Source: a virus
Strand: one strand, 5' to 3'
DNA: 21,956 bases
Virus record (IMG/VR): IMGVR_UViG_3300037487_003238
Coordinates: 1 to 21,956 of that record
The translations under genes were made by a program, and so were the position numbers. Below, piece after piece: positions 177 through 21,956 of the stretch. The notes beneath the pieces are model-generated. The model was given only the letters and a program-made list of their open reading frames with translations, searched no databases and was not told where the DNA came from. Within the stretch, counting starts at the first letter, position 1; every line of letters begins with the position of its first letter.

Positions 177-1802
177 ATGAAGAACGTTTCCGCCACCATT
201 AGCGAAGTGTGTGAAGCCTGGTTAAACCTAAACGGAAAGCCTTTCCGCCTGGACATGTGGCCAGCCCATCGGACCTTTTACGATGGGCTCTGGCGCCGAA
301 CGTTGTTAAAAACAAGTCGGCAGGTCGCGAAGTCCACGACCCTAGCCAACTTCGGGATTGCTGAGTGCGCTCTTATACCACATTTTTCCGTAATGTTTGT
401 AACGCCCTCCAAAGAGCAGACGATGCGCTTTTCGAATTCTCGCGTTACAAAGGTTATGCGTTACTCTCCGATTATCAGAAAGAAGTTTTTGAGTACAGAA
501 CTTTCGGACCGTGTACTCCACAAGCAGTTCACAAATGGGTCGGAGATGGTCTTTGCGTATGCGTTGGATGACGCAGACCGCCTTCGAGGCCCATCCACTG
601 ACCGCAACGTGTACGACGAGGTGCAGGACCTGCTATATAATCCTGTAATTACGGTAGGTAATGAAACATTGTCGCGTTCTAAATATGCGTACGAGACGTA
701 TGCGGGGACGCCAAAGACAATGGAAAATACCATTCAGTATCTATGGGAATTGAGCACCCAGACCGAATGGGTCATGAAGTGCTCAGGTTGCGGTAAATAC
801 CAGTACGCGGCGTCCGAGAAGTGCATTGGCCTTAAAGGAATGATTTGCCTAAAGTGTGGTACGTACTTAAATCCTTTTGAAGGTCAGTGGGTTGATATGG
901 CAGAGTCCCTCCCGGCTGACTCGCGGGTAGAAGAGGAAGACCGTATTAAAGGTTTTCATATTTGTCAGCCATCCATGCCCGATTGTAATCCTCTCGCTGT
1001 TGAGAAGATGGGATACAATCAAGACCTCGTGCGTTTCGCCTCCAAGCAATGGAAAGACATTTTATATAAGCTAGAAAACCTTCCTCCGACGACTTTTAGA
1101 AACGAAGTTTTAGGAATCTCCGATGCGCTTGGCGCGCGCATGATTGCGAAGGAAGAGCTCGAGGCTCTCTGTACGGGGCCGGCGCTGTCGGCTACTCCAT
1201 CTCCCGCGGGCATGGCGGGGGTTACGACGACGGTAGCGGGAATTGATTGGTCGGGCGGAGGCACCTCCGGCGTATCGAGGACTGTTTTGTGGATTTGGGG
1301 TCTGAACACGCAGCTAGGGGTACTTCGTTGTTTGTTTTACAGAATTTATCCAGGTATAAATCCGGTCAATTCTGTCGAAGAAATTATTCAAATTTGCAAT
1401 ATGTATCGAGTTGCGTACGCGGTGGGTGATGCTGGAGAGGGGAGTCTCCCGAACGACGTGCTTCGAAACGCTCTAGGGCCTAATCGCATGACGCAGGTCC
1501 AATACGGAGCGTATGCGCAAGCGTTGCATTGGAATGGGCAGGATAGATACCTCTTAGATCGAACCACAATGATCGACAACTACGTGATGTTGCTCAAGAA
1601 AAAGATGGTCCAATTCGGTCCGTTGGATGAGATGACCATTCCCATCGCAGATATTTTGAATGAATACGAAGAGGTGACGATGTTGGGGAGGAAGGTGTGG
1701 AGACACTCACCGCAGAAGCCCGATGACTGTCTCCACGCGAGTCTTTTTGGATGGTTGGCGTCCAAGATTGTTATGAACGATTTGAAGTTCTGGAAGGATT
1801 GA
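177..1802 (+). CDS. terL: Terminase large subunit (DNA-packaging ATPase/nuclease)
   Basis: A 541-residue packaging motor that would translocate DNA through the portal and cut concatemers. The ATPase half has a deviant Walker A, KTSRQVAKST (45-54, alanine where glycine is usual), Walker B VYDEVQD (145-151) and a coupling motif TYAGTPK (174-180). The RNase H-like nuclease half has acidic residues in GIDWSGGG (D357), VGDAGEGS (D418) and PDDC (D516/D517). Between them lies a zinc-ribbon-like insert, C202-x2-C205 and C224-x2-C227. An in-frame TGA directly precedes the ATG, so translation cannot start further upstream; no good Shine-Dalgarno is visible. Fold and motif order match known TerL proteins and length is typical. 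The portal gene lies about 16 kb away rather than next door. Confidence 0.95.
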   Translation: MKNVSATISEVCEAWLNLNGKPFRLDMWPAHRTFYDGLWRRTLLKTSRQVAKSTTLANFGIAECALIPHFSVMFVTPSKEQTMRFSNSRVTKVMRYSPIIRKKFLSTELSDRVLHKQFTNGSEMVFAYALDDADRLRGPSTDRNVYDEVQDLLYNPVITVGNETLSRSKYAYETYAGTPKTMENTIQYLWELSTQTEWVMKCSGCGKYQYAASEKCIGLKGMICLKCGTYLNPFEGQWVDMAESLPADSRVEEEDRIKGFHICQPSMPDCNPLAVEKMGYNQDLVRFASKQWKDILYKLENLPPTTFRNEVLGISDALGARMIAKEELEALCTGPALSATPSPAGMAGVTTTVAGIDWSGGGTSGVSRTVLWIWGLNTQLGVLRCLFYRIYPGINPVNSVEEIIQICNMYRVAYAVGDAGEGSLPNDVLRNALGPNRMTQVQYGAYAQALHWNGQDRYLLDRTTMIDNYVMLLKKKMVQFGPLDEMTIPIADILNEYEEVTMLGRKVWRHSPQKPDDCLHASLFGWLASKIVMNDLKFWKD

Positions 1803-1959: not shown

Positions 1960-2121
1960 ATGCGTGCGTCCTATATTAAGGCTCGGGATATGGCATACGG
2001 GTATCCTAAAGCAGGGAATAAGAAAATGCACGAGAACCTTCGCCAAAAGTTGAAGTCCGAGAATTATCCTGTGGATGAATGGGATAAGGATAAGCCGAAG
2101 TGGACTAATTCCTTGTTTTAA
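1960..2121 (+). CDS. Hypothetical small protein (53 aa)
   Basis: A 53-residue, highly charged product (beginning MRASYIKARDMAYGYPKAGN and ending in a Trp/Lys/Asp-rich tail, DEWDKDKPKW). The purine-rich GGGGAAGGCGCA before the ATG can serve as ribosome-binding site, and the gene starts 15 bases after the preceding microprotein stop. Its TAA overlaps the stop of the convergent DNA polymerase gene by three bases, leaving no room for a conventional terminator between them. I do not recognise a family. Confidence 0.55.
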   Translation: MRASYIKARDMAYGYPKAGNKKMHENLRQKLKSENYPVDEWDKDKPKWTNSLF

Positions 2122-5100: not shown

Positions 5101-5198
5101 TGTTTCCAAGCGTTTGATATGGTACAGGTATAACAGTCGGTAATTATGTCTACGACGACCTCAGCTGTACCATTCTTCTTCGATGTCATCTGGGGCAT
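2118..5198 (-). CDS. Family A DNA polymerase with N-terminal uracil-DNA-glycosylase-like domain and 3'-5' exonuclease
   Basis: A 1026-residue replicative polymerase. Residues ~15-215 resemble family 4/5 uracil-DNA glycosylases: VGESP (63-67), FAMGATALKSLG (147-158), and cysteines C22, C25, C36, C39, C113, C126 that could hold an Fe-S cluster or zinc. The HPSxxLR active-site segment is not recognisable, so glycosylase activity is doubtful. The DEDDy exonuclease follows: LDTETN (268-273), NAKYDLK (331-337), YAAFDAD (459-465), with a Lys-rich insert at about 413-440. Polymerase motifs: TATARLSSSEENMQNIP (673-689), motif A with D718, E723 and R725, motif B K814-x3-F818-G-x2-YG, motif C VHDS (934-937; usually VHDE). 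The start at 5198 has AAAGGACCAAGTAA before it and overlaps the primase end by 38 bases, implying coupling. Confidence 0.95.
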   Translation of the reverse strand: MPQMTSKKNGTAEVVVDIITDCYTCTISNAWKHAGCPACPSYQKKHYTVSKGGKPANTDYFCVGESPFLSGFTEQENHSGWSFDIERTIFIAFQSALVRLGQLEGRFTYAVRCQIEKPNAKEMVACAPNLRAELLEYATPEKPICIFAMGATALKSLGIQFGKYTDVIGKIIETNIDGRHAYIFVSLSKRQLATKAGYSEILSRQIEVFLKLVQDNKVGELEAKRSVLSRLSEEYQYPRTVEELSNLVTEIVNYSIPGITREHSPISLDTETNTLYPHRDKLQLLMVSVCWDKGKSAAIQLEHPESSIDLEDARPHLERLLTCVKPKIFANAKYDLKVFERKGFKVANLSWDVMLGEHLIEEDKKGFYGLKHITRLRLPEFSAYEDELKEIYAGRLDIDALTPADTSEASQEEQLLKKVKPKRTKKKKADDAPKQSRLEKKLETDDGYKNIPLQELMKYAAFDADVTLRCSAQQRTELTEESKSLAKKRSAFLLGTKEVSKRIGEVLFKHPNPPLYNMAKRILPTTQVLAKMELHGMAVDREYILKLQADMDSYLASSSSIFSDMLPIGLTDFNPASTQHVAKALFSTGYLQPGTGELVCYAGKIEPPRTEKGAISTDAKFLKFLTNTHKCALSAALLEFRGISKARSTFIENIEVLSREDGRMHSNFHQHGTATARLSSSEENMQNIPKRIGKPPHQYHIKRIFIPTRPDFIIVNADAKAAEVRVYAAYSRDKALIAALNNGMDPHSFFAATVYNVANVLQDIKPPQYASVLATIGIDQEHAWSYEDFEARDTLKKLDKAYGEQLDALRKNIKRVVFGILYGAAPKKISGIVGIPEDQAEAIIRTLFNMFPSIKDYIDITKKQVQHIGLVETFLGRRRHLNLQNLPRFLRSRAERQAVNFKIQNTSAEMVLDVLCTTDPVIESDFGGNMLNTVHDSLVFQIPKKYAYQMPAFIQDYGVKQVAKKYPWLPVPFSWDVEVGANYGDLMSVASFLSSNPEFASGEEDDYMDLEIRNALAEEATAEHAA

Positions 5199-8790: not shown

Positions 8791-9586
8791 GCAGTTCTCC
8801 TGTTGCTCGGTCCTTGGCGGGGCACAGTGCTTGGTAGTCACACCAATCACAGAGACGGCTTGGTTGTACGTTGTCTAGGTTTTCAGCTGCCGCGCGTGTC
8901 GTGGTATTGAGGTGCTCCACCACCTTATCTACCCACTCGGCAACTCCAGAAACTTCGATAGGTTTGCCCACGTCGGTGTACTCATCCTGAACCCAATGAA
9001 TAGCGGGTATGACGTGAGTAATCTCAGGATAGTTGGCTTTTGCCAAAAGCGTATAGGCCAGGAATTGCCAATTATAATATCCCAATCCCCGGTTTTTACC
9101 TGTTTTATGATCGATAACCATGAGATGTGGGCGGTCTTTGAAAAGAATACCTACGTCCAAAACTCCGCGGAGTAAACCCGCGTTATTATAGAAAGCGGTA
9201 GGGTTTCCCGTGAAGGTTGACGCTATCTTTTTTTCAACAAGCAAATCAGCTCCTCCGAGTTTATCGATAAAGGCAAATGTTCGGCGCAAGAAAGTTGCGA
9301 CTGCAGGCATGGCCGCTTCTATTTTTTCGCGCTCAACGGTCAGCAGTGTCACCTTGGGATCGTTAAGTGCTATCCCTTTCGCATCGTCAAGGGATTTACC
9401 CGTAAGGCAGAGCTCTAGAATTCTATGAACAGTAATTCCAACTTGAGCTTCTTCTCCTGGGCGGCCTTTTGCAGTCTTTTGTATGTACGCGTACTTGAAT
9501 TTTAAGGGGCATTGCTTTGCCGTATCTGCCTTGCTAGCAGACCAAGGTGCGTATTTTTTCACGAACGGAGTGGGTTCTACCGACAT
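8738..9586 (-). CDS. PD-(D/E)XK nuclease, Cas4/RecB-like, with Fe-S cysteines
   Basis: A 282-residue exonuclease of the RecB/AddB/Cas4 type. Catalytic residues are intact: H54 (GITVHRIL), D144 (GVLDVG), and D159-H-K161 (VIDHKTGK), followed by the helix with Q174. The Fe-S cluster signature is complete: C26 (KQCP) with C246-x2-C249-x5-C255 (CDWCDYQALC). Start chosen at ATG 9586, preceded by GAGAGGAATTACACT; an upstream ATG at 9649 lies in the terminator hairpin and has no site. It sits between the terminator at 9605-9664 and the primase-helicase, and is probably co-transcribed with the latter. Likely roles are end resection or recombination during phage replication; no Cas1/Cas2 or CRISPR array is nearby. 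Confidence 0.88.
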   Translation of the reverse strand: MSVEPTPFVKKYAPWSASKADTAKQCPLKFKYAYIQKTAKGRPGEEAQVGITVHRILELCLTGKSLDDAKGIALNDPKVTLLTVEREKIEAAMPAVATFLRRTFAFIDKLGGADLLVEKKIASTFTGNPTAFYNNAGLLRGVLDVGILFKDRPHLMVIDHKTGKNRGLGYYNWQFLAYTLLAKANYPEITHVIPAIHWVQDEYTDVGKPIEVSGVAEWVDKVVEHLNTTTRAAAENLDNVQPSRLCDWCDYQALCPAKDRATGELHGDQVQEQSLLPSDGGL

Positions 9587-9604
9587 AGTGTAATTCCTCT
9601 CGAG

Positions 9605-9664
9605 AAAAAAAGACCGCTGAGGCGCGATGCTTCCTGGGAGGGAAAGCACTGCGTCTCAGCGGCC
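9605..9664 (-). terminator. Intrinsic terminator after the SSB-like gene
   Basis: On the minus strand, arms at 9664-9644 and 9632-9612 form a 21-base stem (two mismatches, two G-U pairs) around an 11-base loop, followed at once by TTTTTTT (9611-9605). No T-tract exists in the opposite orientation. It ends 18 bases before the next gene in the same operon, so it probably acts as an attenuator. Confidence 0.85.
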
Positions 9665-9675
9665 TAGGTCATACC

Positions 9676-10656
9676 TTATACGTCTGCGTTAATCGCTTCG
9701 TATCCGCCAAAGCCTGTGTCAGCTTCGACGGTGGTTACTGTTGCAGTACCTGTAACGGTCTGCGCGTTCTCTGATGTGGAGGGTTTACTGGTGTCGGCGT
9801 AGCAACGAGCGATGGCAGGGAAGACATAGTCCCGACCTGCAGCGCAGTAGAAAGCGTCACAGAGCGGATGTAGCGCTGCGGGGACTACGCCTTCGGGACC
9901 GGGTATTGCTTCCACGGTAAAGACGAACCAACGATTTTTCTTGTCAGTACTAACTTGTGCAGCGGTCTTTATAGAGTACCAGCGTTGCCAAAGCTGTGGA
10001 GTTCTCCCTGCGAACTTGAGCAACTGGCGGCCGGCGCCTTCCGATGTTCGAGCAAAACGCACCAAGGCGATTTCTTTTCCATCTTGGGCGAGCATAAATG
10101 CGCTGATGTTATTCTTGCACGTCATTTCGGTTCTGTCCGCACCGGGACGCCAGGGGAGATACTGACATTTTTGACACTCTCCGAAAGTGCTTCCCATTTT
10201 GCGGTCGTTTGAATAGCAAATTGTTTTAGGGAGCGAATTTGGGTCAGGCTTCTCGGTGTATTCACGTCCTTCCCAAATAAAAAGCGGAGTACCGATGAAT
10301 TCTTTTCCGACTTTATTGTCGGCGCCTGCACTGTAATACATCTCGCCCGGAATTAAATCCGGTGGGCGTTGGGGGTCATTTCCTGTTCCATGGAAGAGTT
10401 TGAGGTCTGCATGGAAAGACTGAGCTCGGTCGCTGACGATTCCTTTTCTTTCAGGGCTGAGTCTCTTTAAGATATCGTAAAGAGTATCCTTTTGAGAGAG
10501 GTCATCAGGGAGAGCATCGACGAGCTCGAAAAGCGCATCGGGGTTTTTGTAATCGCGGTCAACACTTAGGATGCGTTGCCCGTATTCGCGAACGAAGGAC
10601 GCGTATTCTTTGTACTTTTCGAGGATGGGTGATTCAAGCTTCGTGATATTACTCAT
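9676..10656 (-). CDS. Hypothetical protein, possible ssDNA-binding protein with zinc site
   Basis: A 326-residue protein leading the replication operon. Residues ~1-95 are helical and charged; the middle (about 100-290) is aromatic-rich, as in OB-fold proteins, with a four-cysteine candidate zinc site C147...C161-x2-C164...C180. The C-terminal ~40 residues are Thr/Ser/Ala-rich and look flexible. Start chosen at ATG 10656 (GGAAAAAAG upstream); the open frame continues to 10977 but that extension runs through the promoter region and overlaps the sigma gene. Position ahead of nuclease, primase and polymerase genes, and a strong terminator directly after it, suit an abundant single-strand-binding protein of the gp32 kind. 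That function is inferred from context, not from a recognised family. Confidence 0.7.
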   Translation of the reverse strand: MSNITKLESPILEKYKEYASFVREYGQRILSVDRDYKNPDALFELVDALPDDLSQKDTLYDILKRLSPERKGIVSDRAQSFHADLKLFHGTGNDPQRPPDLIPGEMYYSAGADNKVGKEFIGTPLFIWEGREYTEKPDPNSLPKTICYSNDRKMGSTFGECQKCQYLPWRPGADRTEMTCKNNISAFMLAQDGKEIALVRFARTSEGAGRQLLKFAGRTPQLWQRWYSIKTAAQVSTDKKNRWFVFTVEAIPGPEGVVPAALHPLCDAFYCAAGRDYVFPAIARCYADTSKPSTSENAQTVTGTATVTTVEADTGFGGYEAINADV

Positions 10657-10697
10657 CTTTTTTCCAGGTACCTTTCTTTCCGTGTTTTTTTCAGGGA

Positions 10698-10708
10698 TAG
10701 GAATCCTA
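10698..10708. promoter_or_regulatory. Dyad TAGGA-A-TCCTA, possible operator
   Basis: A perfect 5+1+5 inverted repeat that coincides with the -10 element proposed for the minus-strand promoter, a position where a bound repressor would block transcription. No binding protein is identified. Confidence 0.35.
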
Positions 10709-10732
10709 CCACTGGGATGTTGCCTTGCGCAA
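10703..10732 (-). promoter_or_regulatory. Probable minus-strand promoter for the replication operon
   Basis: On the minus strand TTGCGC (10732-10727) and TAGGAT (10708-10703) are separated by 18 bases and lie about 47 bases before the SSB-like start. The -35 element shares the palindrome TTGCGCAA with the opposite promoter. Confidence 0.4.
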
Positions 10733-10754
10733 GTCTCCTGTGCTCTAATATAAA
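10725..10754 (+). promoter_or_regulatory. Probable plus-strand promoter for the sigma factor gene
   Basis: TTGCGC (10725-10730) and TATAAA (10749-10754) are 18 bases apart; TAATAT at 10746 is an alternative -10. An AGGAGG ribosome-binding site follows at about 10760 and the ATG at 10777. The -35 lies in the palindrome TTGCGCAA (10725-10732), so both directions appear to share it. Confidence 0.45.
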
Positions 10755-10776
10755 TAAACAGGAGGTATTTTTGTAA

Positions 10777-11724
10777 ATGAGCGAAAACTATAGCGACCGA
10801 ACATTCCAGGCGTACTATAACGATGTTGGTCGGCATGCTATAATAACAGCTGCCGAAGAGTACGCATATTTGGTTCGTTATAAAACTTGCCCGTGTTGTA
10901 ATAAACGACTGCCGAAACTTGTGCGACAGAATGTGTGTCCAGCCTGTCGAAAACCAGTTACCGAATATCTGCCTCAAGGGCGTCCTGTTATTTGTGTAAA
11001 GTGTACTACACGTTTTGACTCTTTTAAACCTCCTTCGTACTGCCCGTTGTGCGGGGCGAATCGTGATTTAGAAGCGCGTGAAAAACTCTTACAGGCCAAC
11101 CTCCGTTTCGTTGTGAAAATTGCCAAAAAATTTGCTAAGACCCCGCAGTCAATTCAGCGTCTTATCTCTGCCGGAAATGTGGGGTTAGTCTTAGCGATAG
11201 ATAAATATGAGTTCAAGCACGGCACTCGTTTTCTTACCTATGCCGCTTGGTGGATCAGAAAAGAAATGTGGGACGAGTTACATAAAACGAGCCTCGTGCA
11301 TATACCGTTACACAGACAGCGTGATAAAAAATCGATGCCAGAGTATGACAGTTTTGAGTTAATGGTTGAGCAAGACCTCTCGCAACATTCCCTTATACCA
11401 CTAGAAAGCACACCTTCTCACGCGAGTATGGCGAGCGAAGACGGTGAAGTTGAGGCGAAGGTAATCGACGCGGATAGCGCAGCGCTCTTACGCAAAATGG
11501 TAGACGGTTTAGACTTACGCCCTCGAGACAAGTTTATTATTCTACAGCATTACGATGTCGCGGAAGAGGCACGTAGGACTGAAGAAAAAACGTTAATGCA
11601 AATTGCGTCTGCTGCGGGGATTACGTCTGAGAGAGTTCGTCAGATTCGAGATGGGGTGTTGGTGAAGTTGAAGGCGAAGTTGCAGAAGTCTTGCTCAATC
11701 GGGGATTTTTCAGAGCTTTATTAG
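10777..11724 (+). CDS. RNA polymerase sigma factor (sigma-70 family) with double zinc ribbon
   Basis: A 315-residue sigma-70-family factor that would direct RNA polymerase to phage promoters. Region 1.2-like sequence is at ~10-35 (AYYNDVGRHAIITAAEEYAY). Region 2 runs ~96-185, with NLRFVVKIAKKF, GNVGLVLAIDKYEF and FLTYAAWWIRKEM, which covers core binding and -10 melting. Region 4 runs ~247-303, with GITSERVRQIRDGVLVKLKA as the -35 helix-turn-helix. Region 3 is reduced to a linker. Between regions 1.2 and 2 lie two CxxC...CxxC ribbons: C38/C41/C54/C57 and C73/C76/C89/C92. AGGAGG lies 11 bases before the ATG. It diverges from the replication operon and converges with the ParB-like gene, overlapping its stop by four bases. 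Whether it serves host or phage RNAP is unknown. Confidence 0.93.
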   Translation: MSENYSDRTFQAYYNDVGRHAIITAAEEYAYLVRYKTCPCCNKRLPKLVRQNVCPACRKPVTEYLPQGRPVICVKCTTRFDSFKPPSYCPLCGANRDLEAREKLLQANLRFVVKIAKKFAKTPQSIQRLISAGNVGLVLAIDKYEFKHGTRFLTYAAWWIRKEMWDELHKTSLVHIPLHRQRDKKSMPEYDSFELMVEQDLSQHSLIPLESTPSHASMASEDGEVEAKVIDADSAALLRKMVDGLDLRPRDKFIILQHYDVAEEARRTEEKTLMQIASAAGITSERVRQIRDGVLVKLKAKLQKSCSIGDFSELY

Positions 11725-12782
11725 TCGGAGTCTGCCAGACTCACCGCCATTTGGAGTCCTTGCATAATGCAGCTGTACTTATTGCGCGTAGGCGGGTTGC
11801 GCGCATTGTTCTTTTTATCCTGATACTTGTTCAGAAGCTCTCCTAGACGCTTAGAAGAGAGGGGTTTCATGGACTTGAGATACCCCGAGTCGAGGTAGTC
11901 GTAGTTCTCTTTTTTGATGGCGATTTTACGGCCGCGCTTTTTCTCTTCCTTTTTACCCGCTGCCTTATCGACGGCGCGGCGCTGGCCTACCCACTTGTCG
12001 ACTACCGCGGCGATGGTTCCTGTCGTGAGCTTCCCCGCCTTTACTTTTTCGATAATGCGGTCGAAGTACTTCACGTCACGAGGATCGTCGTAGTTGAATC
12101 GGCACAGAGCAATCGCTGCCGTGACGTCGAGCTTGCCCGTGCTCAGCATCTTCTTGGCTTCGTCAGGGAGGCATTCCAGGCGGAGGTACTGATTGACTTG
12201 GTTGTCGCTGTAGCCCGTGGCTTGGGCTATTTCCTTCACGGTATTTCCCAAGTCGCGCTGCGCGCTGAAAGTTCGGCTAAGTTCCAGAGGAGTGTGGTCT
12301 TCTCGTGCGAGATTTGCCAGGAGGCTCTGAAGCTGTGCTTGCTTTTCGTCCGCGCACGTGGACACGGTAACAGGCACTTCGGTGATGCCCGCTTCCTTGA
12401 GTGCGGCATACCGTCGGCGCCCATCGATGAGCTGCAGCTTGCCGTCAGTACGATAGAAAACGACGAGAGGTACCAGCAATCCTTCGGCAACAATAGACTT
12501 CGTCAACTTGTCGATGTTCTGGAGCTTATCGCGATTCCAAGTACCGGAGAGCTCGATGTCCTTGAGCTTCACCTTTGTCGTGGCCATGGGAGCGTCTTTT
12601 TTCCCAACCACGATTTCCTTCTTCTTCGGATTCACAAAAATTGGTGGAGCTTCTTTTGGAATCGTTATCGGAAGAAGTTCGTCGATGGTTCCGACGAGCT
12701 CGTTATAGGCAGCTTCTTCTTCCGCTTTTTTGTCCACAGTTGTGACTGGAACTTTTTCAGTTTCAAAATCGTCTTGTGTCAT
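11721..12782 (-). CDS. ParB/Spo0J-like DNA-binding protein
   Basis: A 353-residue ParB-family protein. Residues 1-65 are acidic and look disordered. The ParB N-terminal (CTPase/nuclease fold) domain is at ~70-165, with box I-like IVAEGLLVPLVV, the signature LIDGRRRYAALKEAG (118-132) and ANLAREDHTPLE (156-167). A helix-turn-helix follows at 181-206 (EIAQATGYSDNQVNQYLRL). The C-terminal third is basic, with KKEEKKRGRKIAIKK at about 277-291. The ATG overlaps the preceding stop (ATGA). Such proteins bind specific DNA sites and spread; in phages they may act in segregation, replication or gene control. No ParA ATPase gene is visible here. Confidence 0.88.
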   Translation of the reverse strand: MTQDDFETEKVPVTTVDKKAEEEAAYNELVGTIDELLPITIPKEAPPIFVNPKKKEIVVGKKDAPMATTKVKLKDIELSGTWNRDKLQNIDKLTKSIVAEGLLVPLVVFYRTDGKLQLIDGRRRYAALKEAGITEVPVTVSTCADEKQAQLQSLLANLAREDHTPLELSRTFSAQRDLGNTVKEIAQATGYSDNQVNQYLRLECLPDEAKKMLSTGKLDVTAAIALCRFNYDDPRDVKYFDRIIEKVKAGKLTTGTIAAVVDKWVGQRRAVDKAAGKKEEKKRGRKIAIKKENYDYLDSGYLKSMKPLSSKRLGELLNKYQDKKNNARNPPTRNKYSCIMQGLQMAVSLADSD

Positions 12783-13051
12783 ACCGGTTCGTCTCCTGTT
12801 TCACGCAGTTCGCGCAGTACGGCATCCTTGTCAACCAAGCGGAGGTCTATGTGCCTCATGGGGGTCCCCTCAAGGATGGCTCCAAGGGCATGGAAGAGCT
12901 CCACCGCCAACGGAATCAGGCTGTTGTCGCTGTTGTACACGACCATGTACAACGCCCGGATTTTTCGAATGGCGTCGCGGTCAGACCCGCGGAACCTCTT
13001 CGAAGGGGGCGCTGCCGTGGACGATGCAGCGCGGGGTTGGGCTCTCGGCAT
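12779..13051 (-). CDS. Hypothetical small protein (90 aa; start uncertain)
   Basis: The frame ends with a TGA overlapping the ParB-like start. The C-terminal ~65 residues look like a real small fold (VVYNSDNSLIPLAVELFHAL, then RHIDLRLVDKDAV). Two starts are possible. ATG 13051 has GCAGAGGTGTTAG in front but gives a Pro/Ala/Arg-rich N-terminus that overlaps the zinc protein by 71 bases. ATG 12946 gives 55 residues without overlap, but has no ribosome-binding site and cuts off a plausible helix (DRDAIRKIRALY). I prefer 13051 on the ribosome-binding site. No family is recognised. Confidence 0.55.
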   Translation of the reverse strand: MPRAQPRAASSTAAPPSKRFRGSDRDAIRKIRALYMVVYNSDNSLIPLAVELFHALGAILEGTPMRHIDLRLVDKDAVLRELRETGDEPV

Positions 13052-13148
13052 CTAACACCTCTGCTCCGCAAAGAGGACACCGCAGTTTTCCATCTGCAGC
13101 ATTCTTTTGTAGGTCGGAAATGGACTCTTCCACCCCATACTTCTCCAT
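12981..13148 (-). CDS. Small zinc-ribbon protein (55 aa)
   Basis: A 55-residue product starting MEKYGVEE. It contains LRCPLCGAEV and, 17 residues after that CxxC, PRCIVHGSAPFEE. This gives a probable C24-x2-C27...C41-x2-H44 zinc site. The ATG shares one base with the stop of the upstream gene (TGATG), typical of translational coupling. Its 3' half overlaps the possible longer form of the next gene. Small one-ribbon proteins of this style are frequent in phages; function is unknown, with nucleic-acid or protein binding possible. Confidence 0.75.
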   Translation of the reverse strand: MEKYGVEESISDLQKNAADGKLRCPLCGAEVLDAESPTPRCIVHGSAPFEEVPRV

Positions 13149-13588
13149 CAGATCGCCTCTTCCACTTCGGTCTCGGTGGTAGTCGCGGCTGCATCAACCA
13201 TCGCAGCTGCTGTCTCACCCTTCTTGGCGCGCGGCTTGCGGACCTTGGGCTCGGCATTCGCGTCCTGCTCGTTGAAGATGTCCGCGACGAGGTCGGTGAT
13301 GCGTGCCGTACAGCCTCGGCGCTTGCCCTCTCCGGCCTCGCGCGAGCAGATATCGTAGAGAACCTTGTGCTCGTACTTCTTGGTCTCCGGGTTGAGCTGC
13401 AGCACGATGATTGCCGGAGGCTCGTCGACCTCCGCCAGGCCGGCGACGACTTCCTCGATGTGGGCGAGGGTCACTTTGCGGGTCTTGCTCTGGTCCATGA
13501 GGCGCTGGGCATCCTCGAGATTCCCAATGGATTCTTCGGCCTTACCACAGCGTCCGCACTTCTTCGTGATCTTCAGTTGAGCGTTCAT
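13148..13588 (-). CDS. Hypothetical protein (146 aa), CxxC N-terminus, Ala/Glu-rich tail
   Basis: A 146-residue soluble protein. It has CGRC at 11-14 and further cysteines in DICSREAGEGKRRGC, a helical charged middle, then a basic patch (KVRKPRAKKG, about 115-124) and an Ala/Thr/Glu-rich acidic tail that looks disordered. The ATG is preceded by AAGAGGTAATTCAAAGA, whose AAGAGGTAA also encodes the end of the endolysin, so the two genes are tightly linked. The basic patch may contact nucleic acid. I do not recognise a family. Confidence 0.7.
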   Translation of the reverse strand: MNAQLKITKKCGRCGKAEESIGNLEDAQRLMDQSKTRKVTLAHIEEVVAGLAEVDEPPAIIVLQLNPETKKYEHKVLYDICSREAGEGKRRGCTARITDLVADIFNEQDANAEPKVRKPRAKKGETAAAMVDAAATTTETEVEEAI

Positions 13589-13596
13589 TCTTTGAA

Positions 13597-14724
13597 TTAC
13601 CTCTTGAGTTTTTCTAACGTTTTCGGTCCGACAATCCCGTCGACGACGAGAGATTCTGGGCGATTGTCATTACATCTCCGTTGAAAGCTGATTACGACCT
13701 CCTTTGTTTTTTCTCCGTAAATACCATCGACAGTCAGTGCGAAGCCTCGGTTAACGAGAAGCTGCTGGATGTCCTTGATGGCGGGGAGAGTGGTTGCTTC
13801 AGTTTCTTTGTCGGGCTCGGTCTCGAGTCCGTACTCCGGGTTCTCGATGCAGGTATCTTGGTCATCAAACTCTTCGGAACAGATGAAGTCGTTCGATGGA
13901 AGATAAACAGTCTCTATGGCCATCTGGAAGGCTTTGAGCTCTTCCAGTGGATAATCTTCGAAAACGGCAGTGTTTACGTCCGCAAATGGCCAGAGAGGTC
14001 CCATGTCGAACTTCCCCTCTTGCCACTGCGAATGCTGTGACATGCGCGCGGGAGAGAGGAGGGAGTCGTCTGTCGCCCAACGAATGATGCGTTTGAGTTT
14101 GATGTTGTTCGTAACCTGATCTGCAGTGAAAGGCTGGAAAAATTTGGCGCCTTTATAAGCGGGAGAGACAGGCTGGGGCGGGAGTTCTTTTACCAGTTTA
14201 GCCGGGATATTTTTCCCATTCCACATGACCCAGTCTTCTCCGATGCTGCGGACAGGGCCGGCGTTCACCATCTCGATGCTCCAGCTGTCCGCGTTTCGAG
14301 CGGGAGTGTGCCAGGCCCCATGCATCAGTGGGACGATGTAGAAAGGCTTCGTGTGGTAGCCGAGCACGAAATGAGTTGAAGCCCTACTTTTTGAAGAAGA
14401 ACCAAACCAATTCAGCGTCGAAACATGAGAAATACCTGCGGTGAAGTGGTCGATCCACCACAAAGCGGGCTTTGTCAGAAGGCGGTTAGGGTTGCACTTG
14501 GTCGTAGGATACAGAACCTTGGCGGTCTTTCCGAGTGCTTGCAGGATGCGGGCGTGGGAGTCGATAAAGAGTGCGTTCAAGCATGCACAGGCGTCTTCTT
14601 TGCTGAGTCGGATGGACTCAGACAGCTCCCAAAAGTGTTCGAATGTCGTGTTGGAAGCTAGGGCTTCACTCTCGATAAAGTCCCAGAACTTCTTCTCTTT
14701 TGTGTAATCGAGCAATCCGTCCAT
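13597..14724 (-). CDS. Endolysin: N-acetylmuramoyl-L-alanine amidase (Amidase_2) with C-terminal peptidoglycan-binding domain
   Basis: A 375-residue lysin that would cleave the amide bond between MurNAc and the peptide stem. The Amidase_2 (T7 lysozyme/AmpD) pattern is clear: WIDHFTAG (H93, zinc ligand), STHFVLG, GAWHTPARNADSWSIEMVN with E151, and QHSQWQEGKFDMGP supplying H231, K238 and D240. A PGBD1-type domain occupies ~316-375 and contains two VDGI(Y/V)G-x-KT repeats. A predicted helical region precedes the amidase (1-85) and there is no signal peptide, so export would need a holin; none is visible nearby. Start at 14724 is preferred over 14730 because AGAGG lies 8 bases before it. The gene sits inside a nucleic-acid-processing operon, an uncommon place for a lysin. 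Confidence 0.88.
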   Translation of the reverse strand: MDGLLDYTKEKKFWDFIESEALASNTTFEHFWELSESIRLSKEDACACLNALFIDSHARILQALGKTAKVLYPTTKCNPNRLLTKPALWWIDHFTAGISHVSTLNWFGSSSKSRASTHFVLGYHTKPFYIVPLMHGAWHTPARNADSWSIEMVNAGPVRSIGEDWVMWNGKNIPAKLVKELPPQPVSPAYKGAKFFQPFTADQVTNNIKLKRIIRWATDDSLLSPARMSQHSQWQEGKFDMGPLWPFADVNTAVFEDYPLEELKAFQMAIETVYLPSNDFICSEEFDDQDTCIENPEYGLETEPDKETEATTLPAIKDIQQLLVNRGFALTVDGIYGEKTKEVVISFQRRCNDNRPESLVVDGIVGPKTLEKLKR

Positions 14725-15605: not shown

Positions 15606-15993
15606 CACGGTTGCTCCTAACGTAAATAATGGGTTCACCCGGCGGTAGGTTTGCTTCGGATTCGTTTCGTTCGCGTGTTGTAACTTCTCCGTCTTGGGAG
15701 TATTCGTACACTATCCCCTCGAGCTGATGGCTTTCAGTCATAATTTGGGCCATTTCTTCCGGAGACGATTCAGGAGGAGGCACAGGTACTTCTTTTGGAG
15801 TCGTCAGATATTGTTTTAGGTGTGGTGGATTAGGAGGTGTTACGGGATAGATTTGCCTATTCAAACCAAAGATGTTTAGATTTGTACCAATAATGACTCG
15901 GTCATCCGGGATAAAAGCGATATGTGTAACGTCCGCGTTCAGGGCCTTGGCAAGAAGGAGTTTGAGTTCTTCAACGGTTATAATGATTTCCAC
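15598..15993 (-). CDS. Hypothetical acidic/proline-rich protein (131 aa)
   Basis: A 131-residue protein starting at GTG 15993, with GGAG ten bases upstream, overlapping the helicase 3' end by 23 bases. The N-terminal ~45 residues form a plausible alpha/beta unit (IIITVEELKLLLAKALNADV then HIAFIPDDRVII). A proline-rich linker follows (VTPPNPPHLKQYLTTPKEVP) and then an acidic, probably flexible C-terminus ending in IIYVRSNRDE. There are no cysteines or membrane segments. Tight overlap on both sides implies co-translation with helicase and nuclease; it might be an adaptor, but no function can be assigned. Confidence 0.65.
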   Translation of the reverse strand: MEIIITVEELKLLLAKALNADVTHIAFIPDDRVIIGTNLNIFGLNRQIYPVTPPNPPHLKQYLTTPKEVPVPPPESSPEEMAQIMTESHQLEGIVYEYSQDGEVTTRERNESEANLPPGEPIIYVRSNRDE

Positions 15994-18022
15994 TTCTTAT
16001 GATCTCCGGTGAAACAGTTTCTCGGCTGATGTTGGACCGGTGTATACACCCGGCCGCCCAGGGAATAATCTTTTCCTTCAAGCAGTCCGCGTAGCGGTTA
16101 CAGAGAGCACAGCTCACTTTTTCCGTGAGCATTTTAGCGATATCTTCTCTGTTATCCAGTGCCACGAGCTGCTGAATCTCGACGCTATCCCGGGCGCACA
16201 GACGATATACGACGGTCTTCCGCGTTTGCCCTATCCGATATTCTCGGGCTCGGGATTGCAACCAGTGCTCCAGCGACCAAGATCGACTGTAATACACCGC
16301 GTAGCGAGAAGCCACGAGATTTATTGCGATGCCTGTGGATTCTTGCCCGAGATACGCGCGACAGTTAATATCCGTGCTGAAATTATTGACGAGCGTCTTT
16401 ATGCGATGCGTTGATGACCCGTCTACGCGCACGTATGCGTAGTTTAACTTTTTCAGAAGCTTCTCAATGTCATCCATCTCCGCCATCATATTTGCCCAAA
16501 TGACAACTTTTTCTTCTGGGTTATCTAAGAGGTCTTCTAGAAGGTCACTCAAGGCCTCGAGCTTAGGATTATGTGTATATCTGAGTGTGTTCTTTTCGAG
16601 CATCTCTCGAAGCTTTTCGTAGCGCTCGCACTGCTTCGTTCCTGGAGCGATACTGTTACGGACACAACGCATAACATACTGACATATGTCGCAAACTTGA
16701 CCCATAGTTTCATCTTTTAGATACAGAAAACCGCTGCATATTTGGAGAAGTTTGTTTAAGCGGACGCCACCGTTGAGATTCGAAAGCTGTCCGTATTCTC
16801 CAAAGTCTAAGTCAACGCGCTTTACGAGGGCGTTATAGTCCTTGAGCTGTTCCGGAGACAGAGTAAACATTACATCCACATCTCTAAGCTCCGGTAAATC
16901 AACGCAATCATCTATAAGCTTTTCACTCGAAAGGCTGTTAATGCGTTGGCTAATGATATTGAGATGCCGGTATCCTGTTATTATGTGCGCGTTCGTAGGG
17001 GATGTAATACAGAACTTATTCGCGTATTCCATATAGTTTTCGGGGCACATATATTTGGCCAAGGCATTCATCTGGGGATAAAGGTCCAAAGGATTTCCCA
17101 TGCTGATAGTTCCAGTGAGTAAGTAGCGCCGCGCTGCGTGTTTACAGAGCTCCATGACCGCCTTCGTACGCTTACTCTTGATATTTTTTATGCGATGAGA
17201 TTCATCTAAGATAATGATTTCATACGGAAAATCTGTAAGACAAAAGTCCTTAGATAGCGCTGCGACCTTACACTTGATAGCCGCGAGGGACACTAAATTT
17301 TGATAATCATCTAGAATCTCTAGCGCATTTTTCTCTGTTAAACCCTTAAGGAGTTTTTGTACCGCGAGTGGCACAGGGAGTCGACCGGTTTTTAGGCGTT
17401 TAATCACTGGAGCTGGAACTGTGTGGACTCCGTAAAGACGTGCGGCATCGTAGGTTGTGAGCAGAATATCACAAGGACCCGCTATAGCTTTTTCTAAAGC
17501 TTCGAGTTTCTTTTGCCGCGTGGTCCCTTTGAGAACTGCAGCTTTTAAAGAGCCGTTGGAGTGGAGCTCTATCTCGGTAATCCAATTGTCGATGGCAACT
17601 ACCGGTGCGATGATAAGAGTTTTCTTGCGCAGCTTATTTAAGGCTTCAATTGCAACCTTTGTTTTCCCTGTCCCCATTTCCCAACGTAGCGCCCAGCGAT
17701 AGTTGTACAAAAGTTCTGCAATTCCTTCGTTTTGATGTTCGTAGTTGGGGTAGGGGCCGAGAGGAGGGGTGGACTGGACCTCCGACAAGAGCTCCTCGTA
17801 GGAGCGTATTTTAGACAGGTATGCCCGAGCCTCATCGCTGTACTGGACGCCTAAAGCCGCAAAATCATTTTTTACTTTCTCCAGAAATGGGGGGTATGCG
17901 GGATACATCCAAGCATTGTATTGTTTCAAATAGGTGCCTCCGTAGATTCGAGATAAGATATCGAGATTCCCCGTGATAATAAATGCGGGAGTCCTTGCTG
18001 AGAGTACAAACGTAGCTTCCAT
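15971..18022 (-). CDS. SNF2/DEAD-like superfamily 2 helicase with two Cys4 clusters
   Basis: A 683-residue SF2 ATPase of SNF2 type, a DNA translocase or remodeller. Motifs in order: Q-motif region YPNYEHQNEG (91-100), Walker A EMGTGKT (115-121), IIAPVVAIDNW (137-147), DILLTTYD (185-192), DESH (273-276), LLTGTI (301-306), then the second RecA lobe with VVIWANM (506-512), STGIAINL (562-569) and the arginine-finger motif QSRAREYRIGQ (589-599). Two cysteine clusters have exactly the same spacing: C444-x2-C447-x5-C453-x11-C465 and C638-x2-C641-x5-C647-x11-C659. The ATG has AAGGAGCGACAGG in front. It is the first gene of a minus operon and diverges from the portal gene. Known phage SNF2-like proteins act in replication, recombination or origin opening. 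Confidence 0.92.
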   Translation of the reverse strand: MEATFVLSARTPAFIITGNLDILSRIYGGTYLKQYNAWMYPAYPPFLEKVKNDFAALGVQYSDEARAYLSKIRSYEELLSEVQSTPPLGPYPNYEHQNEGIAELLYNYRWALRWEMGTGKTKVAIEALNKLRKKTLIIAPVVAIDNWITEIELHSNGSLKAAVLKGTTRQKKLEALEKAIAGPCDILLTTYDAARLYGVHTVPAPVIKRLKTGRLPVPLAVQKLLKGLTEKNALEILDDYQNLVSLAAIKCKVAALSKDFCLTDFPYEIIILDESHRIKNIKSKRTKAVMELCKHAARRYLLTGTISMGNPLDLYPQMNALAKYMCPENYMEYANKFCITSPTNAHIITGYRHLNIISQRINSLSSEKLIDDCVDLPELRDVDVMFTLSPEQLKDYNALVKRVDLDFGEYGQLSNLNGGVRLNKLLQICSGFLYLKDETMGQVCDICQYVMRCVRNSIAPGTKQCERYEKLREMLEKNTLRYTHNPKLEALSDLLEDLLDNPEEKVVIWANMMAEMDDIEKLLKKLNYAYVRVDGSSTHRIKTLVNNFSTDINCRAYLGQESTGIAINLVASRYAVYYSRSWSLEHWLQSRAREYRIGQTRKTVVYRLCARDSVEIQQLVALDNREDIAKMLTEKVSCALCNRYADCLKEKIIPWAAGCIHRSNISRETVSPEIIRSGNHYNR

Positions 18023-18082: not shown

Positions 18083-19816
18083 ATGACTACGATTTCCGAT
18101 ACGACGTTAATGGCCACGGGTGGATTGGGTCACTCTAACCCATACTTCACCTATAGTCAGCTCTTTGCTCCCAAGCGATTGAAGGAACTTTTCAAGATGT
18201 GCGAGTACCTGTTTTATAACAGCCCACACATCTTCGCAGCCCTTCGAAAGTTTGGAGAATATCCTATAACAGAGATTACGTATGATACGGATAATATTCA
18301 GTTAAAAGAGAAGCAGAAGAGTCTCCTAGAAAAGGTTGTCCGCGCAAAAGAATTTCTGTTGAAATCCACGCTGGATAAATATATTTATGGAAACTCCTTC
18401 ACTTCTATGTACCAACCGTTCGTCCGTTATTTGACTTGTCCAAAGTGCAAGGCGGCTACGAATATCAAGTTCGTGGACTATTCTTTTACACTGCAAACTT
18501 TAACGTTTGCTTTTAAATGCCCCGCCTGCGAGCGTCAAGTAACTGTGGGTGAAGATAACGTTGAGGACCGGAAGCTGATGCTCACGAAGGACATCAACTT
18601 CATTCGCTGGGACCCCAAGTGTATCGACATCGAACACAACGTTTTTACAGGAGAATCCGTTTACTATTATTCGATTCCTTCGGATACGGCAGCGCAGGTT
18701 CGACGCGGGCAGAAGCATATCATCGACACGACGCCCTGGGGTTTTCTGCAGGCTATCAAAGAGCACAAGCCTTTTAAGTTCGCCCCCGAGGCCCTCTTCC
18801 ACATGAAATTTTGTGCGCCGGCCGGTGTGAACCCGCAATGGGGCTTGCCGCCCCTCCTCCCAGCGCTCGACCGCTTTTTCTATACGCAGGTGTTGCGTAA
18901 AGCGAATGAGGCTATTGCGCTCGAGCATCTCGTGCCCTTCCGTATCGTGTCCCCCGCGGCGACGTCGAGTAGCGGAGACCCCATCCAGTCTATCAACCTC
19001 GCCCGGTGGATAGACAACATGAAGAAGAACGTGCAGGACTGGCGCAACGACCCGCTGCACATCATGTACGCGCCCATCCCCGTGGCTGTCTCGCAGTTGA
19101 ATGGGCAAGGACGAGCTCTTCTCACCCTCGGAGAAGTCCAAGAGGCAGAGAAGTCCCTCGTGGCTGCCCTTGGAATTCCGCTCGAGTTCCTCTATGGCGG
19201 ACTCACGGGTCAGGGCATGAGCGCGACCTTGCGCATGATTGAGAACCAGCTGGCGACGCATGTCAGCGACCTCACGGACCTCCTTCAATGGATGACGGAT
19301 TCCTGCAGCAAGTTTTTGGGGTGGGAGTCCATTCCGGTGGGACTTATTCCTTTCCGGATGGTGGACGATAATGAAAAGAAGGGAATGCTTTTTCAGCTCT
19401 GGCAAGCGGGACTTCAGGGAATGGGACCTCAGACAATTTCGACGACAACGATGGCCGAAATCAACGACATCGATGTGCAAAAAGAGTATGGAAGAATCAA
19501 AGAAGAGACGTTGCAAAATGCGCGTCGGACACAAGAACTGCAGCGTGAGATGCAGAAGATTCAAAATACGATGGCCCAGCAGATTCAGCAGGAGGCCGGC
19601 GCCGGAGCTCCACAGGGCTATGACCAGCAGCAGGTCATTGCGAACGCTGACAATTTGGCACAGCAGTTTTCACAGATGGACCCCTCGACGAGAAAGAGCC
19701 AGCTTCACCAGCTTCAGATGGAAGACCTCGTAATGTACTCGGTGGTCATTCAACGCCTTGAGCAACAACAGACCGTGGCGCGGCAGCAAGCAACCGTGCA
19801 ACAGGGGGCAATGTGA
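18083..19816 (+). CDS. Portal protein
   Basis: A 577-residue protein that would form the dodecameric ring at the capsid vertex for DNA entry and exit. Portal-like features are ADKYIYGNSFTSM-type strands near 98-110 (here LDKYIYGNSF), the segment LVAALGIPLEFLYGG (about 363-377) followed by a long helical stretch with MSATLRMIENQLATHV, and a Gln-rich coiled C-terminus (~480-577) like a portal barrel or crown. An unusual zinc ribbon, C119-x2-C122 and C146-x2-C149, is inserted near the N-terminal third. The ribosome-binding site is weak. It starts a plus-strand unit with the Cys/His-rich protein directly downstream (TGATG). Terminase and portal are not adjacent in this genome. Confidence 0.85.
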   Translation: MTTISDTTLMATGGLGHSNPYFTYSQLFAPKRLKELFKMCEYLFYNSPHIFAALRKFGEYPITEITYDTDNIQLKEKQKSLLEKVVRAKEFLLKSTLDKYIYGNSFTSMYQPFVRYLTCPKCKAATNIKFVDYSFTLQTLTFAFKCPACERQVTVGEDNVEDRKLMLTKDINFIRWDPKCIDIEHNVFTGESVYYYSIPSDTAAQVRRGQKHIIDTTPWGFLQAIKEHKPFKFAPEALFHMKFCAPAGVNPQWGLPPLLPALDRFFYTQVLRKANEAIALEHLVPFRIVSPAATSSSGDPIQSINLARWIDNMKKNVQDWRNDPLHIMYAPIPVAVSQLNGQGRALLTLGEVQEAEKSLVAALGIPLEFLYGGLTGQGMSATLRMIENQLATHVSDLTDLLQWMTDSCSKFLGWESIPVGLIPFRMVDDNEKKGMLFQLWQAGLQGMGPQTISTTTMAEINDIDVQKEYGRIKEETLQNARRTQELQREMQKIQNTMAQQIQQEAGAGAPQGYDQQQVIANADNLAQQFSQMDPSTRKSQLHQLQMEDLVMYSVVIQRLEQQQTVARQQATVQQGAM

Positions 19817-20355
19817 TGAAAAGTTTTATTGACGCTATTAACGATTCTAGAGCAACGTCTATTGCCGAACCCGTTGCGCCCTTGGATAACGTAGCGATGT
19901 TCATGCCCGAAGCTAAGAGCGTCCTAAAAGGAAAACAGACAACTTTTGGGCAAGGTCTGAACTGTAACGGACATTCAAAAGTGTTCGTTCTTTGGCGTCC
20001 GTGGACTCAATGCCATCGCTGTCTTAAAAAAATAGAGCACGGAGAATTTGAGCTCCCGGATGTGGGAGACCATGAGTGTCCGCACACTATGCGTGAGGAC
20101 TATGAAGCCATTTTAGATAGCGGCCTTCGGGGTGACGTTCTTTTTCAAACACAGGAATACTTCACGCTCCATGACGGCACGCGCTGTTGCCACGCTGTTT
20201 GGTTGACTATGGATGCCAAAGTATCGGAGTTGGCCGCAAAAAGGCAGGAGGTCGCCGAGACTTTTTCCCCGTTACATTCCTCGATAATCGCGGAGATGAA
20301 AGCGGAGGCGGAGAAAAAAGAAGCCCTGGAGGCTTCTGAGGACGAACCTCAATGA
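19816..20355 (+). CDS. Hypothetical Cys/His-rich protein after portal
   Basis: A 179-residue protein whose ATG shares a base with the portal stop; AGGGGG lies seven bases before it, and the GTG three bases earlier is less well placed. It has a probable zinc site, C66-x2-C69 with C88-x-H90, and a second group C124-C125-H126. The last ~45 residues are a charged helix rich in Lys, Glu and Ala. Position suggests a virion or assembly role with the portal. Its last codons lie inside the hairpin at 20323-20370. No family is recognised. Confidence 0.75.
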   Translation: MKSFIDAINDSRATSIAEPVAPLDNVAMFMPEAKSVLKGKQTTFGQGLNCNGHSKVFVLWRPWTQCHRCLKKIEHGEFELPDVGDHECPHTMREDYEAILDSGLRGDVLFQTQEYFTLHDGTRCCHAVWLTMDAKVSELAAKRQEVAETFSPLHSSIIAEMKAEAEKKEALEASEDEPQ

Positions 20356-20512: not shown

Positions 20513-21956
20513 ATGAAACTGATACCTATCCTTCAAAACCCCAATGAGAAGCGTGAGCGCATCCGCGATAAAGTAATTGAAGGACTGACCGAGTCCTTTC
20601 CGATTACAGCACGTAATAAAATTATCGAGGTCACGGATGTTTCTTTTACTCCGAGAGATTACACCTCGAACGAGCAGAAGATGGCCATCCTTCGGGGAGA
20701 TTCTCTTTTTGAGACAGCGAAGGGTACGGTACGTATAAAAGATGCGAAAACAGATAAGGTTTTAGACGAGGCTAAAAATTTCACTCTCGCCCGCGTTCCG
20801 TGGTTCACTCCGCGACATACGCTCATCGTTGCTGGAAATGAATATTCGATTGCGAACATGGTACGGCCAAAGCCAGGCGTGTACGCACGTAAGAGGGCTA
20901 ATGGAATCCTCGAAGCTAGTTTTAATACTGTCGGCACCTCGAACTTTAATGTCACCATGGACCCGGAGAAGGGAGAACCAGAGCTCGAGTACGGTTCTTC
21001 CAAAATACCTCTTTACACAATTCTCCGAGCCTCGGGAATCTCCCATGACGCTATCGCTAAAAAGTGGGGTAGTGCACTAGCGAACGAAAATCAGAAGCGT
21101 CTTGAAAAGAATCTTCCGCAGCATGTCGACAAGCTTTATCGAAAAGTAGTTCCTGCTTACGCTATCCTTCCAGATATGACCGTGGACTCCAAGATGGAGG
21201 AGGTCCTTGCGCGGTATAAAAAGGCGACGATGGACCCAAAGGTTAATGAGAAAACCTTGGGAACAGCGTACGGGCATGTGACTCCTGATAGCCTCCTCGA
21301 CGCTTCGGCAAAGGTGCTTAACATTTTTCGTAATCCCGAGGAGGTCGATGACCGCGATAACCTCGATTTTAAATCGTTGCGTTCTGTAGAGGACTTTTTC
21401 AAAGAGCGTATCCAACTCGATGCGCGTGATATTGGTCGGCGTGCAGCTATCAAGCTTGAAAATACGCCAGAGGTCCGTAAGGCTATGACTTCTGGAGCTT
21501 TTACTCCAGGCCTTGTCAAGTTCATTACGGGTTCGCAGCTTGCGGCGATTCCCACGCAGACGAATCCGATGGAGCTCATCGATACAGCCGTGCGCGTGAC
21601 GTCGCTGGGTGAAGGCGGTATCAGCTCTGAGCGGGCTATTCCCATGGAAGCGCGGATGATTCATCCGACACAGATTGGGGCGCTCGACCCGGTTCGTACT
21701 CCGGAGTCCTTCCGCGCGGGTATCGACGTACGTGCGGCGCTCTCGGCAGCACACGATAAAGATGGAAACATTTTTGTCCCGATGATTGATACTAAAACGG
21801 GAAAGCAGACTTATATCCGAGCAGGAGAGATTGCAACTTCGACTGTAGCGTTCCCACAACAGGTTATGAAAGGGAAAATTTCAGCTCTGGTAAATGGCAG
21901 AATTGCTACGGTGCAAGCGAATAAAGCCCAGTATCAAATTCCCCATTCTTCGGTGA
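20513..21956 (+). CDS. RNA polymerase beta-subunit-like protein (N-terminal 481 aa; truncated by window)
   Basis: The open frame starts at ATG 20513 (CGAGGTCACAT upstream) and runs off the right edge without a stop. Landmarks of bacterial beta appear in order: ARVPWFTPRHTLIVAGNEYS (93-112, like the RTPRxT...FIVNGTERV stretch), VRPKPGVYARK (117-127, like HRSPGVFF), VDDRDNLDFKSLRSVEDFF (278-296, like DDIDHLGNRRVRSVGE), GSQLAAIPTQTNP (340-352, like SSQLSQFMDQNNP), RVTSLGEGGISSERA (361-375) and RMIHPTQIGALDPVRTPES (381-399, like RDVHPTHYGRVCPIETPEG). The lobe domains are much shorter than in cellular beta. The catalytic C-terminal part is outside the window. It follows the portal unit, so a late or virion-associated RNAP is possible. 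The partner subunits are not in view. Confidence 0.9.
   Translation, partial: MKLIPILQNPNEKRERIRDKVIEGLTESFPITARNKIIEVTDVSFTPRDYTSNEQKMAILRGDSLFETAKGTVRIKDAKTDKVLDEAKNFTLARVPWFTPRHTLIVAGNEYSIANMVRPKPGVYARKRANGILEASFNTVGTSNFNVTMDPEKGEPELEYGSSKIPLYTILRASGISHDAIAKKWGSALANENQKRLEKNLPQHVDKLYRKVVPAYAILPDMTVDSKMEEVLARYKKATMDPKVNEKTLGTAYGHVTPDSLLDASAKVLNIFRNPEEVDDRDNLDFKSLRSVEDFFKERIQLDARDIGRRAAIKLENTPEVRKAMTSGAFTPGLVKFITGSQLAAIPTQTNPMELIDTAVRVTSLGEGGISSERAIPMEARMIHPTQIGALDPVRTPESFRAGIDVRAALSAAHDKDGNIFVPMIDTKTGKQTYIRAGEIATSTVAFPQQVMKGKISALVNGRIATVQANKAQYQIPHSSV

Follow-up and report, generated by a model that had tools for sequence, protein, structure and literature searches.

A phage gene for a bacteria-like RNA polymerase: a beta–beta' fusion with a split beta', a putative active-site intein and a probable place in the virion

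The stretch of DNA analysed here, referred to as the window, comprises 21,956 nucleotides (positions 1 to 21,956 of IMG/VR virus record IMGVR_UViG_3300037487_003238) and ends within a gene for the main chain of an RNA polymerase (RNAP). The 5' part of this gene occupies positions 20513..21956 of the plus strand (481 codons, cut at its 3' side by the window end); ATG 20513 serves as the start codon, and TTG 20489 is a possible alternative. Upstream on the same strand lie a portal homologue (18083..19816, 577 aa; profile match to portal Gp204 of Salmonella phage Arash, 316 bits) and, between portal and RNAP gene, an open reading frame (ORF) for a 180-aa protein (19813..20355, plus strand), for which no PHROG match was found. 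Of 93 related loci where this could be tested, 81 likewise have a portal gene upstream of the RNAP gene on the same strand.

The other window genes include a terminase large subunit as a lineage marker (177..1802, plus strand; PF05876, 3.1e-12; phrog_675, 1.4e-38, a family that the Arash terminase matches too) and, on the minus strand, a family A DNA polymerase with an N-terminal UDG-like domain and a 3'-5' exonuclease domain (2118-5198), a zinc-finger primase-like protein (5161-8850), a ParB-like protein (11721-12782) and a SNF2-type helicase (15971-18022). A sigma-70-type factor with N-terminal zinc-ribbon cysteines is encoded on the plus strand at 10777..11724 (PF04542, 3.1e-12; PF04545, 6e-6) and is the orthologue of Arash Gp196 (1.3e-16 in phmmer/tblastn searches with Gp196). 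The co-occurrence of a UDG-like family A polymerase and a sigma factor, pointed out in an earlier note made from the sequence alone, is borne out by homology for both genes, the UDG-like domain matching PF03167 at the cut-off (3.7e-5). CxxC zinc-ribbon-like inserts are present in both the sigma factor and the portal.

The RNAP reading frame in the window spans the N-terminal region of beta up to the fork (HPTQIGALDPVRTPES), and all beta-subunit signature motifs named in the earlier note can be found in it. The 481-aa protein matches Rpb2 domain 3 of Pfam (5.1e-8), and in sequence searches RpoB chains of the PDB match its residues 74-431 with E values down to 2e-16. An AlphaFold model built with 19 relatives (pLDDT 78, pTM 0.72) gave the answer to the proposed comparison with beta structures: each of the best 50 PDB fold matches is a beta chain from bacteria or plastids (top E value 5.5e-24; TM-score ~0.7 by query length). 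The fork region, residues 348-410, is poorly modelled, yet well conserved in sequence. The lobes had been described as shortened, which is true in comparison with E. coli-type beta but not with cyanobacterial beta; relative to the latter the stretch is nearly full length, its residues 74-431 aligning with chain residues 84-454. Relatives of the window protein occur in 26 viral loci, mostly at 61-100% identity. What the window contains is the first third of the gene of a tailed phage for a cell-like RNAP of the two-barrel type.

The continuation of the gene was taken from two assemblies of practically the same phage, L008 and L001, to which the window is identical by 99.99% over 11.4 kb and 99.07% over 8.4 kb, respectively. 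In these, the full main-chain gene has 1784 codons and encodes beta, a putative intein and the N-terminal half of beta' (beta'N). Beta reaches its own C-terminus and is followed, without an intervening stop, by beta'N, which holds the sequence INRAPTLHR...GADFDGD and stops ~90 residues beyond. Domain matches along the fused chain comprise Rpb2 domains 3 and 6 and Rpb1_2 (2.9e-19), in addition to the DFDGD motif. The remainder of beta and the beta' DFDGD motif, which the earlier note proposed to look for downstream, lie in the same reading frame. Its proposal of an RNAP beta subunit behind the portal was right as to the polymerase and the portal but has to be modified as to the subunit, the gene encoding a beta–beta'N fusion rather than beta alone.

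Two further genes follow. The start of the second one overlaps the RNAP gene, and its 489-aa product combines a LigD-type primase-polymerase (PrimPol; PF21686, 7e-17) with a phosphoesterase-like domain (PF13298, 3.3e-6, below its cut-off). The third encodes the C-terminal half of beta' (beta'C; 622 aa from the first start codon; Rpb1_5, 6.9e-14). The order of fused chain, PrimPol and beta'C is kept in those loci of the window phage's clade that have enough sequence. Throughout this clade, a LigD-type PrimPol is located between both RNAP genes (L001 12316-13785; also L002, L004, L006, L010, L021 and others). Downstream of beta'C, L008 and L001 differ: the former carries an ORF at 20655-21443 (LNRTHKIALDPTLHQEVYFRRCCGVARF...), presumably for a TnpB-type transposon protein, and the latter a structural-type ORF. 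The L001 contig of 172,892 bases bears a 190-bp terminal repeat (189 of 190 positions identical) and therefore represents a complete genome of ~172.7 kb; the window spans the ends of this contig.

Compared with Salmonella RpoC, phage beta' still has the DxDGD barrel, the histidine of the trigger loop and the second zinc site, whereas exactly the first zinc domain is missing and much less is left of the stretch from the trigger loop to the C-terminus. Members of the window clade have a strongly altered bridge helix (GARKG to SEAIL) and trigger loop (MRTFH to ALGAKH), so that activity should not be assumed; single-chain relatives such as L085 retain the bacterial-like residues in these elements. 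Over the family, the GDK motif and the second lysine of beta are invariant, as is DxDGD. Each genome has one place for beta and one for beta'C (18 records), which indicates a single enzyme rather than two sets as in phiKZ-like phages. The ~172.7-kb genome carries two sigma-like genes. A de novo search for phage promoter motifs in the upstream regions of a 173-kb relative, based on crude gene calls, yielded nothing convincing, a result that speaks neither for nor against such promoters.

A gene for the alpha subunit was found in none of the 18 long records searched, the controls being matched in 13 of 14 cases. The lack of a detectable alpha, the closeness of the sequence to bacterial beta and the altered active-site elements of the window clade would also suit an enzyme that is completed by host subunits (alpha, perhaps sigma), or a decoy or inhibitor of host transcription. 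Such a role is improbable: a decoy would not need the DxDGD motif and the two lysines, which do not vary within the family, no genome lacks the beta'C gene, and phiKZ-like RNAPs dispense with alpha (PMC7598289). An alpha-free polymerase of the phage's own is thus preferred.

The beta part of the chain is interrupted, downstream of the window part, by an insert of 330 residues (site A; GDKL/C...SGN/SGRYGNKG in L001). It sits between both catalytic lysines of beta, which we take to be the equivalents of K1065 and K1073 in the active site of E. coli beta. In 14 relatives, Cys1, the TxxH motif and a C-terminal Asn of the insert are invariant, and a Ser at position +1 is present in all seven relatives checked. 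The predicted model of the insert (pLDDT 89) matches VMA-type and PI-PfuI/PI-SceI inteins with a homing-endonuclease domain (1.9e-16), and empty sites are seen in relatives. By sequence hallmarks, predicted fold and empty sites, the insert qualifies as a putative intein. A second site (B) lies directly behind the beta' DxDGD triad and is occupied in L011, L013, L019 and L029 by inserts of ~480-540 residues, which match LAGLIDADG profiles and, in L019, also the intein splicing domain; L019 and L093 have inserts at both sites. The insert at site B apparently ends in Asp, not Asn. With inteins at both catalytic motifs, the enzyme is predicted to be inactive before protein splicing, which may thus serve as a control point of RNAP activity.

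Further large insertions in the RNAP chain are located at other conserved places: around beta column 400 in L034 and L043, where they match the site-A intein profile, at beta ~227 and 584-591 in L089 and L095, and at beta ~940 in L099 and L101. The portal genes of L020 (6226-9291), L058, L065, L071 and L103, too, contain large insertions that stay in frame and may be inteins or homing genes. In Vibrio phages D148 (OZ196545.1) and D181 (OZ196140.1), the RNAP match, at ~144.1-149.6 kb, is in three pieces and the region includes an annotated homing endonuclease, unlike D69, probably due to an intron or similar insertion.

Profile searches revealed at least 128 related viral stretches in one case and at least 157 in another. 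A tree was built from 99 phage loci and four bacterial outgroups. All 99 phage loci form one clade relative to the outgroups, and the branch between this clade and the bacteria has a length of 1.27 substitutions per site. A core of beta, beta'N and beta'C in one ORF is found in 39 of the 99 loci, some of which are near-identical, and has a length of ~2000-2500 codons where complete. The fused-then-split form makes up a clade of 55 loci (support 0.999) that includes Arash, the Vibrio phages and the window clade; in five of its members (L075, L076, L082, L090, L105), the chain is instead broken early in beta'. The fused-then-split label of L071 (bbN/bC) in this tree is an artefact of the contig end. 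When the tree is rooted with bacteria, the single-chain forms branch first, which suggests that fusion preceded fission, the deep nodes being poorly supported. The window clade looks like a later re-splitting behind the active-site barrel of beta', at the break site that cyanobacteria and phiKZ-like phages have in common (PMC7598289).

In L100, the fused RNAP frame (8184-13955) is broken by three in-frame TGA codons only (8487, 9051, 10863), which suggests that this phage reads TGA as an amino acid. Other beta and beta' homologues, at ~25-27% identity, are encoded by Rhizobium phages RHph_TM30 and others, Cobetia phage Carin-5, Yersinia phages YerA41/GN1 and Vibrio phage Va2.

Context and tree also bear on the question whether the gene might stem from bacterial contamination or be a recently captured host rpoB. 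Some database records of supposed phages (Listeria, Staphylococcus, Enterococcus, Acinetobacter) do contain an ordinary bacterial rpoB. The window gene, however, adjoins a portal gene in a 172.7-kb genome with a terminal repeat, has counterparts in ~100 related viral loci whose clade is distant from bacteria, is fused and lacks the first zinc domain of beta'. Contamination or host pick-up is ruled out by genomic context and tree and was given next to no credence. Among the INPHARED records, OR846602, OR844998, OR846821, CAKLQH020000005, AFYI01000006 and similar ones contain ordinary bacterial rpoB/rpoC filed as phage; in two of them, these genes are annotated inside a normal ribosomal-protein operon, indicating contamination or misfiled genomes. 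Beta and beta' also have matches in PHROG families 24349 and 25354, which cannot be taken as evidence of phage relatives because their lengths (1191 and 1216) look like ordinary bacterial RpoB and RpoC.

A cultured relative provides information on where the enzyme resides. Arash Gp206 (L027) is an orthologue of the main chain, with 32.5% identity over the window part and 36% over the chain. In the published virion proteome of Arash, Gp206 is the most detected protein (3516 spectra, 128 unique peptides), and the beta'C chain Gp216 (1210 spectra), the sigma factor Gp10 (467) and the helicase Gp217 (1148) were also abundant, whereas the second sigma factor, Gp196, is absent from the list (PMC10585845). 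Normalized to length, Gp206, Gp216, Gp10 and Gp217 account for 2.31, 2.00, 2.00 and 2.43 spectra per residue, compared with 1.51 for the portal and 4.34 for the capsid protein; spectral counts are a crude measure, as some Arash proteins with two unique peptides have hundreds of spectra. The density of unique peptides groups the RNAP chains with structural proteins (8.4 per 100 aa for Gp206 versus 0.4-0.7 for two helicases on the same list). Orthologues of Gp206, Gp216, Gp10 and Gp217 all exist in the window phage, those of Gp10 and Gp217 at 137067-137783 (1e-33) and 43405-44832 (2e-79) of the L001 contig. The RNAP is hence a virion component in Arash and, by analogy, probably also in the window phage, which supports the suggestion of a virion-packaged enzyme in the earlier note. 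The enzyme being in the particle of a cultured relative, phages of this lineage may begin transcription without the host polymerase.

The Arash list comprises 116 proteins, with likely carry-over among them, such as ribonucleotide reductase, primase and ligase, and carry-over is offered as an alternative by its authors (PMC10585845). The RNAP could accordingly be a non-virion enzyme for middle or late genes that is produced after infection, reaches high levels in lysates and was carried over into the Arash particle preparation, the early genes being read by host RNAP with a phage sigma factor. The phage sigma factors could serve host RNAP, and a single set of RNAP genes might mean that the one enzyme serves one phase. 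This reading is unlikely, while deserving to be kept in mind: carry-over does not sit well with the top spectral count of Gp206 and its structural-like peptide density, with the listing of one of two Arash sigma factors but not the other, or with the location of the RNAP gene within the head-gene block, next to the portal.

The preferred and probable explanation is an RNAP of beta–beta'N and beta'C that lacks alpha, travels in the virion and, directed by a sigma factor, transcribes the early phage genes. Gene identity, fusion and split, the intein (by sequence and predicted fold), both sigma genes and the absence of a detectable alpha are established parts of it. The main chain comprises the whole of beta and the N-terminal half of beta', which ends shortly after the DFDGD barrel; the remaining beta', with its second zinc site, its bridge helix and its trigger loop, comes from the second RNAP gene. 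The putative intein between the catalytic lysines of beta would have to splice out before the enzyme works. Covalent fusion may take over part of the role of alpha in assembly. The RNAP would be packaged in the virion together with the Gp10-type sigma factor and enter the cell alongside the DNA, where it may act as a holoenzyme and transcribe early genes without host RNAP. The presence of Gp10 in the Arash virion, the absence of Gp196 from the list and the orthologues of both in the window phage suggest an early/late sigma model, in which the zinc-ribbon sigma factor (10777-11724 in the window) would be made later and redirect transcription. Against the explanation as a whole count the greater distance between the RNAP genes of Arash and the lack of a PrimPol gene there, the possible carry-over and crude spectral counts of the Arash list, the promoter search without a convincing motif, and the altered bridge helix and trigger loop of the window clade.

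On the scale of the lineage, the RNAP core may have been fused into one chain and re-split in the window clade, possibly helped by mobile elements hitting the catalytic motifs again and again, and an alpha-free, sigma-directed virion holoenzyme may free early transcription from the host. This broader scenario is tentative, its chances being put at a little under even. If true, no known virion RNAP would be more bacteria-like, and the family would document in nature how subunits fuse and come apart again. Earlier work on phage RNAPs has dealt with very divergent single chains (crAss-like, P23-45) or with multiply split enzymes (phiKZ/AR9), whose relation to the cellular ones is hard to establish. 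The window family is directly alignable with bacteria and has intermediate architectures (one chain; fused and then split in the cyanobacterial manner; split elsewhere) as well as cultured members. It allows tests of (i) how two-barrel RNAPs assemble without alpha, (ii) whether a bacteria-like holoenzyme with its sigma factor can be carried in a virion, and (iii) whether the splitting of subunits is driven by inteins or homing elements.

Among cellular enzymes, Helicobacter has a fused rpoBC and cyanobacteria have split rpoC1/rpoC2, both in combination with alpha and omega. Each thus shows either the fusion or the beta' split after the barrel, and neither combines both, in contrast to the window clade. 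The phiKZ/AR9 enzymes resemble the window RNAP as phage two-barrel RNAPs without alpha or omega, with beta' split after the barrel and a virion form; they differ by two RNAP sets, a split beta, no known initiation factors and extreme divergence (PMC7598289). The window phage has one set, an unsplit beta fused to beta'N, two sigma-like genes and a sequence alignable with bacteria. The crAss-like and P23-45 virion RNAPs (PMC10770324) likewise have both barrels in one polypeptide and are virion-borne, but their sequences hardly reveal them as RNAPs and other virion proteins are fused to them, whereas the bacterial beta and beta' domains are kept throughout the window family. An assignment to the phiKZ-like or crAss-like type is ruled out by the unsplit beta, the single set, the sigma factors of the phage and the far better alignment with bacterial beta.

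The closest published group, the multi-subunit RNAP-encoding Caudovirales (mReC; Weinheimer and Aylward 2020, PMC7481178), is similar in consisting of tailed phages known from uncultured material, whose beta and beta' are cell-like, can be aligned and form a clade apart from cells; its description mentions neither inteins nor splitting, neither sigma factors nor a presence in virions, and fusion only for crAssphage (PMC7481178). Two named mReC examples come from metagenome 3300017989, as does the relative L056, so that an overlap of the groups is likely and the window phage a candidate member. The mReC capsids belong to PF07068, a capsid being detected in only 8 of 97 mReC contigs, and their terminases to PF03237/VOG01069 (PMC7481178). 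A search for PF07068 capsids matched none of 54 records, but the controls were also without match; the Arash capsid matches PF05065 weakly and PF07068 not at all. The window terminase matches PF05876 only, that of Arash both PF05876 (6e-6) and PF03237 (3.8e-5).

The closest known systems are Arash (Gp206 and Gp216; OQ632216) and Vibrio phages D69, D148 and D181, which have the same beta–beta'N fusion, a separate beta'C and a homologous portal upstream, and share a well-supported clade with the window phage (36% identity over the whole chain). They differ from the window clade by a beta GDK site without intein and by other genes, and no PrimPol, between the RNAP genes. Arash Gp206 is annotated as beta only and the Vibrio genes as hypothetical; the 'beta subunit' annotation of the former needs to be corrected to a beta–beta' fusion. 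No description of the fusion, split or inteins of this lineage was found in the open-access literature, most subscription papers being outside its scope. Phage RNAPs of the multisubunit type are known as such; the present one is marked by the beta–beta'N fusion with a split beta', the putative active-site intein, the phage's own sigma factors and the probable presence of the enzyme in the virion.
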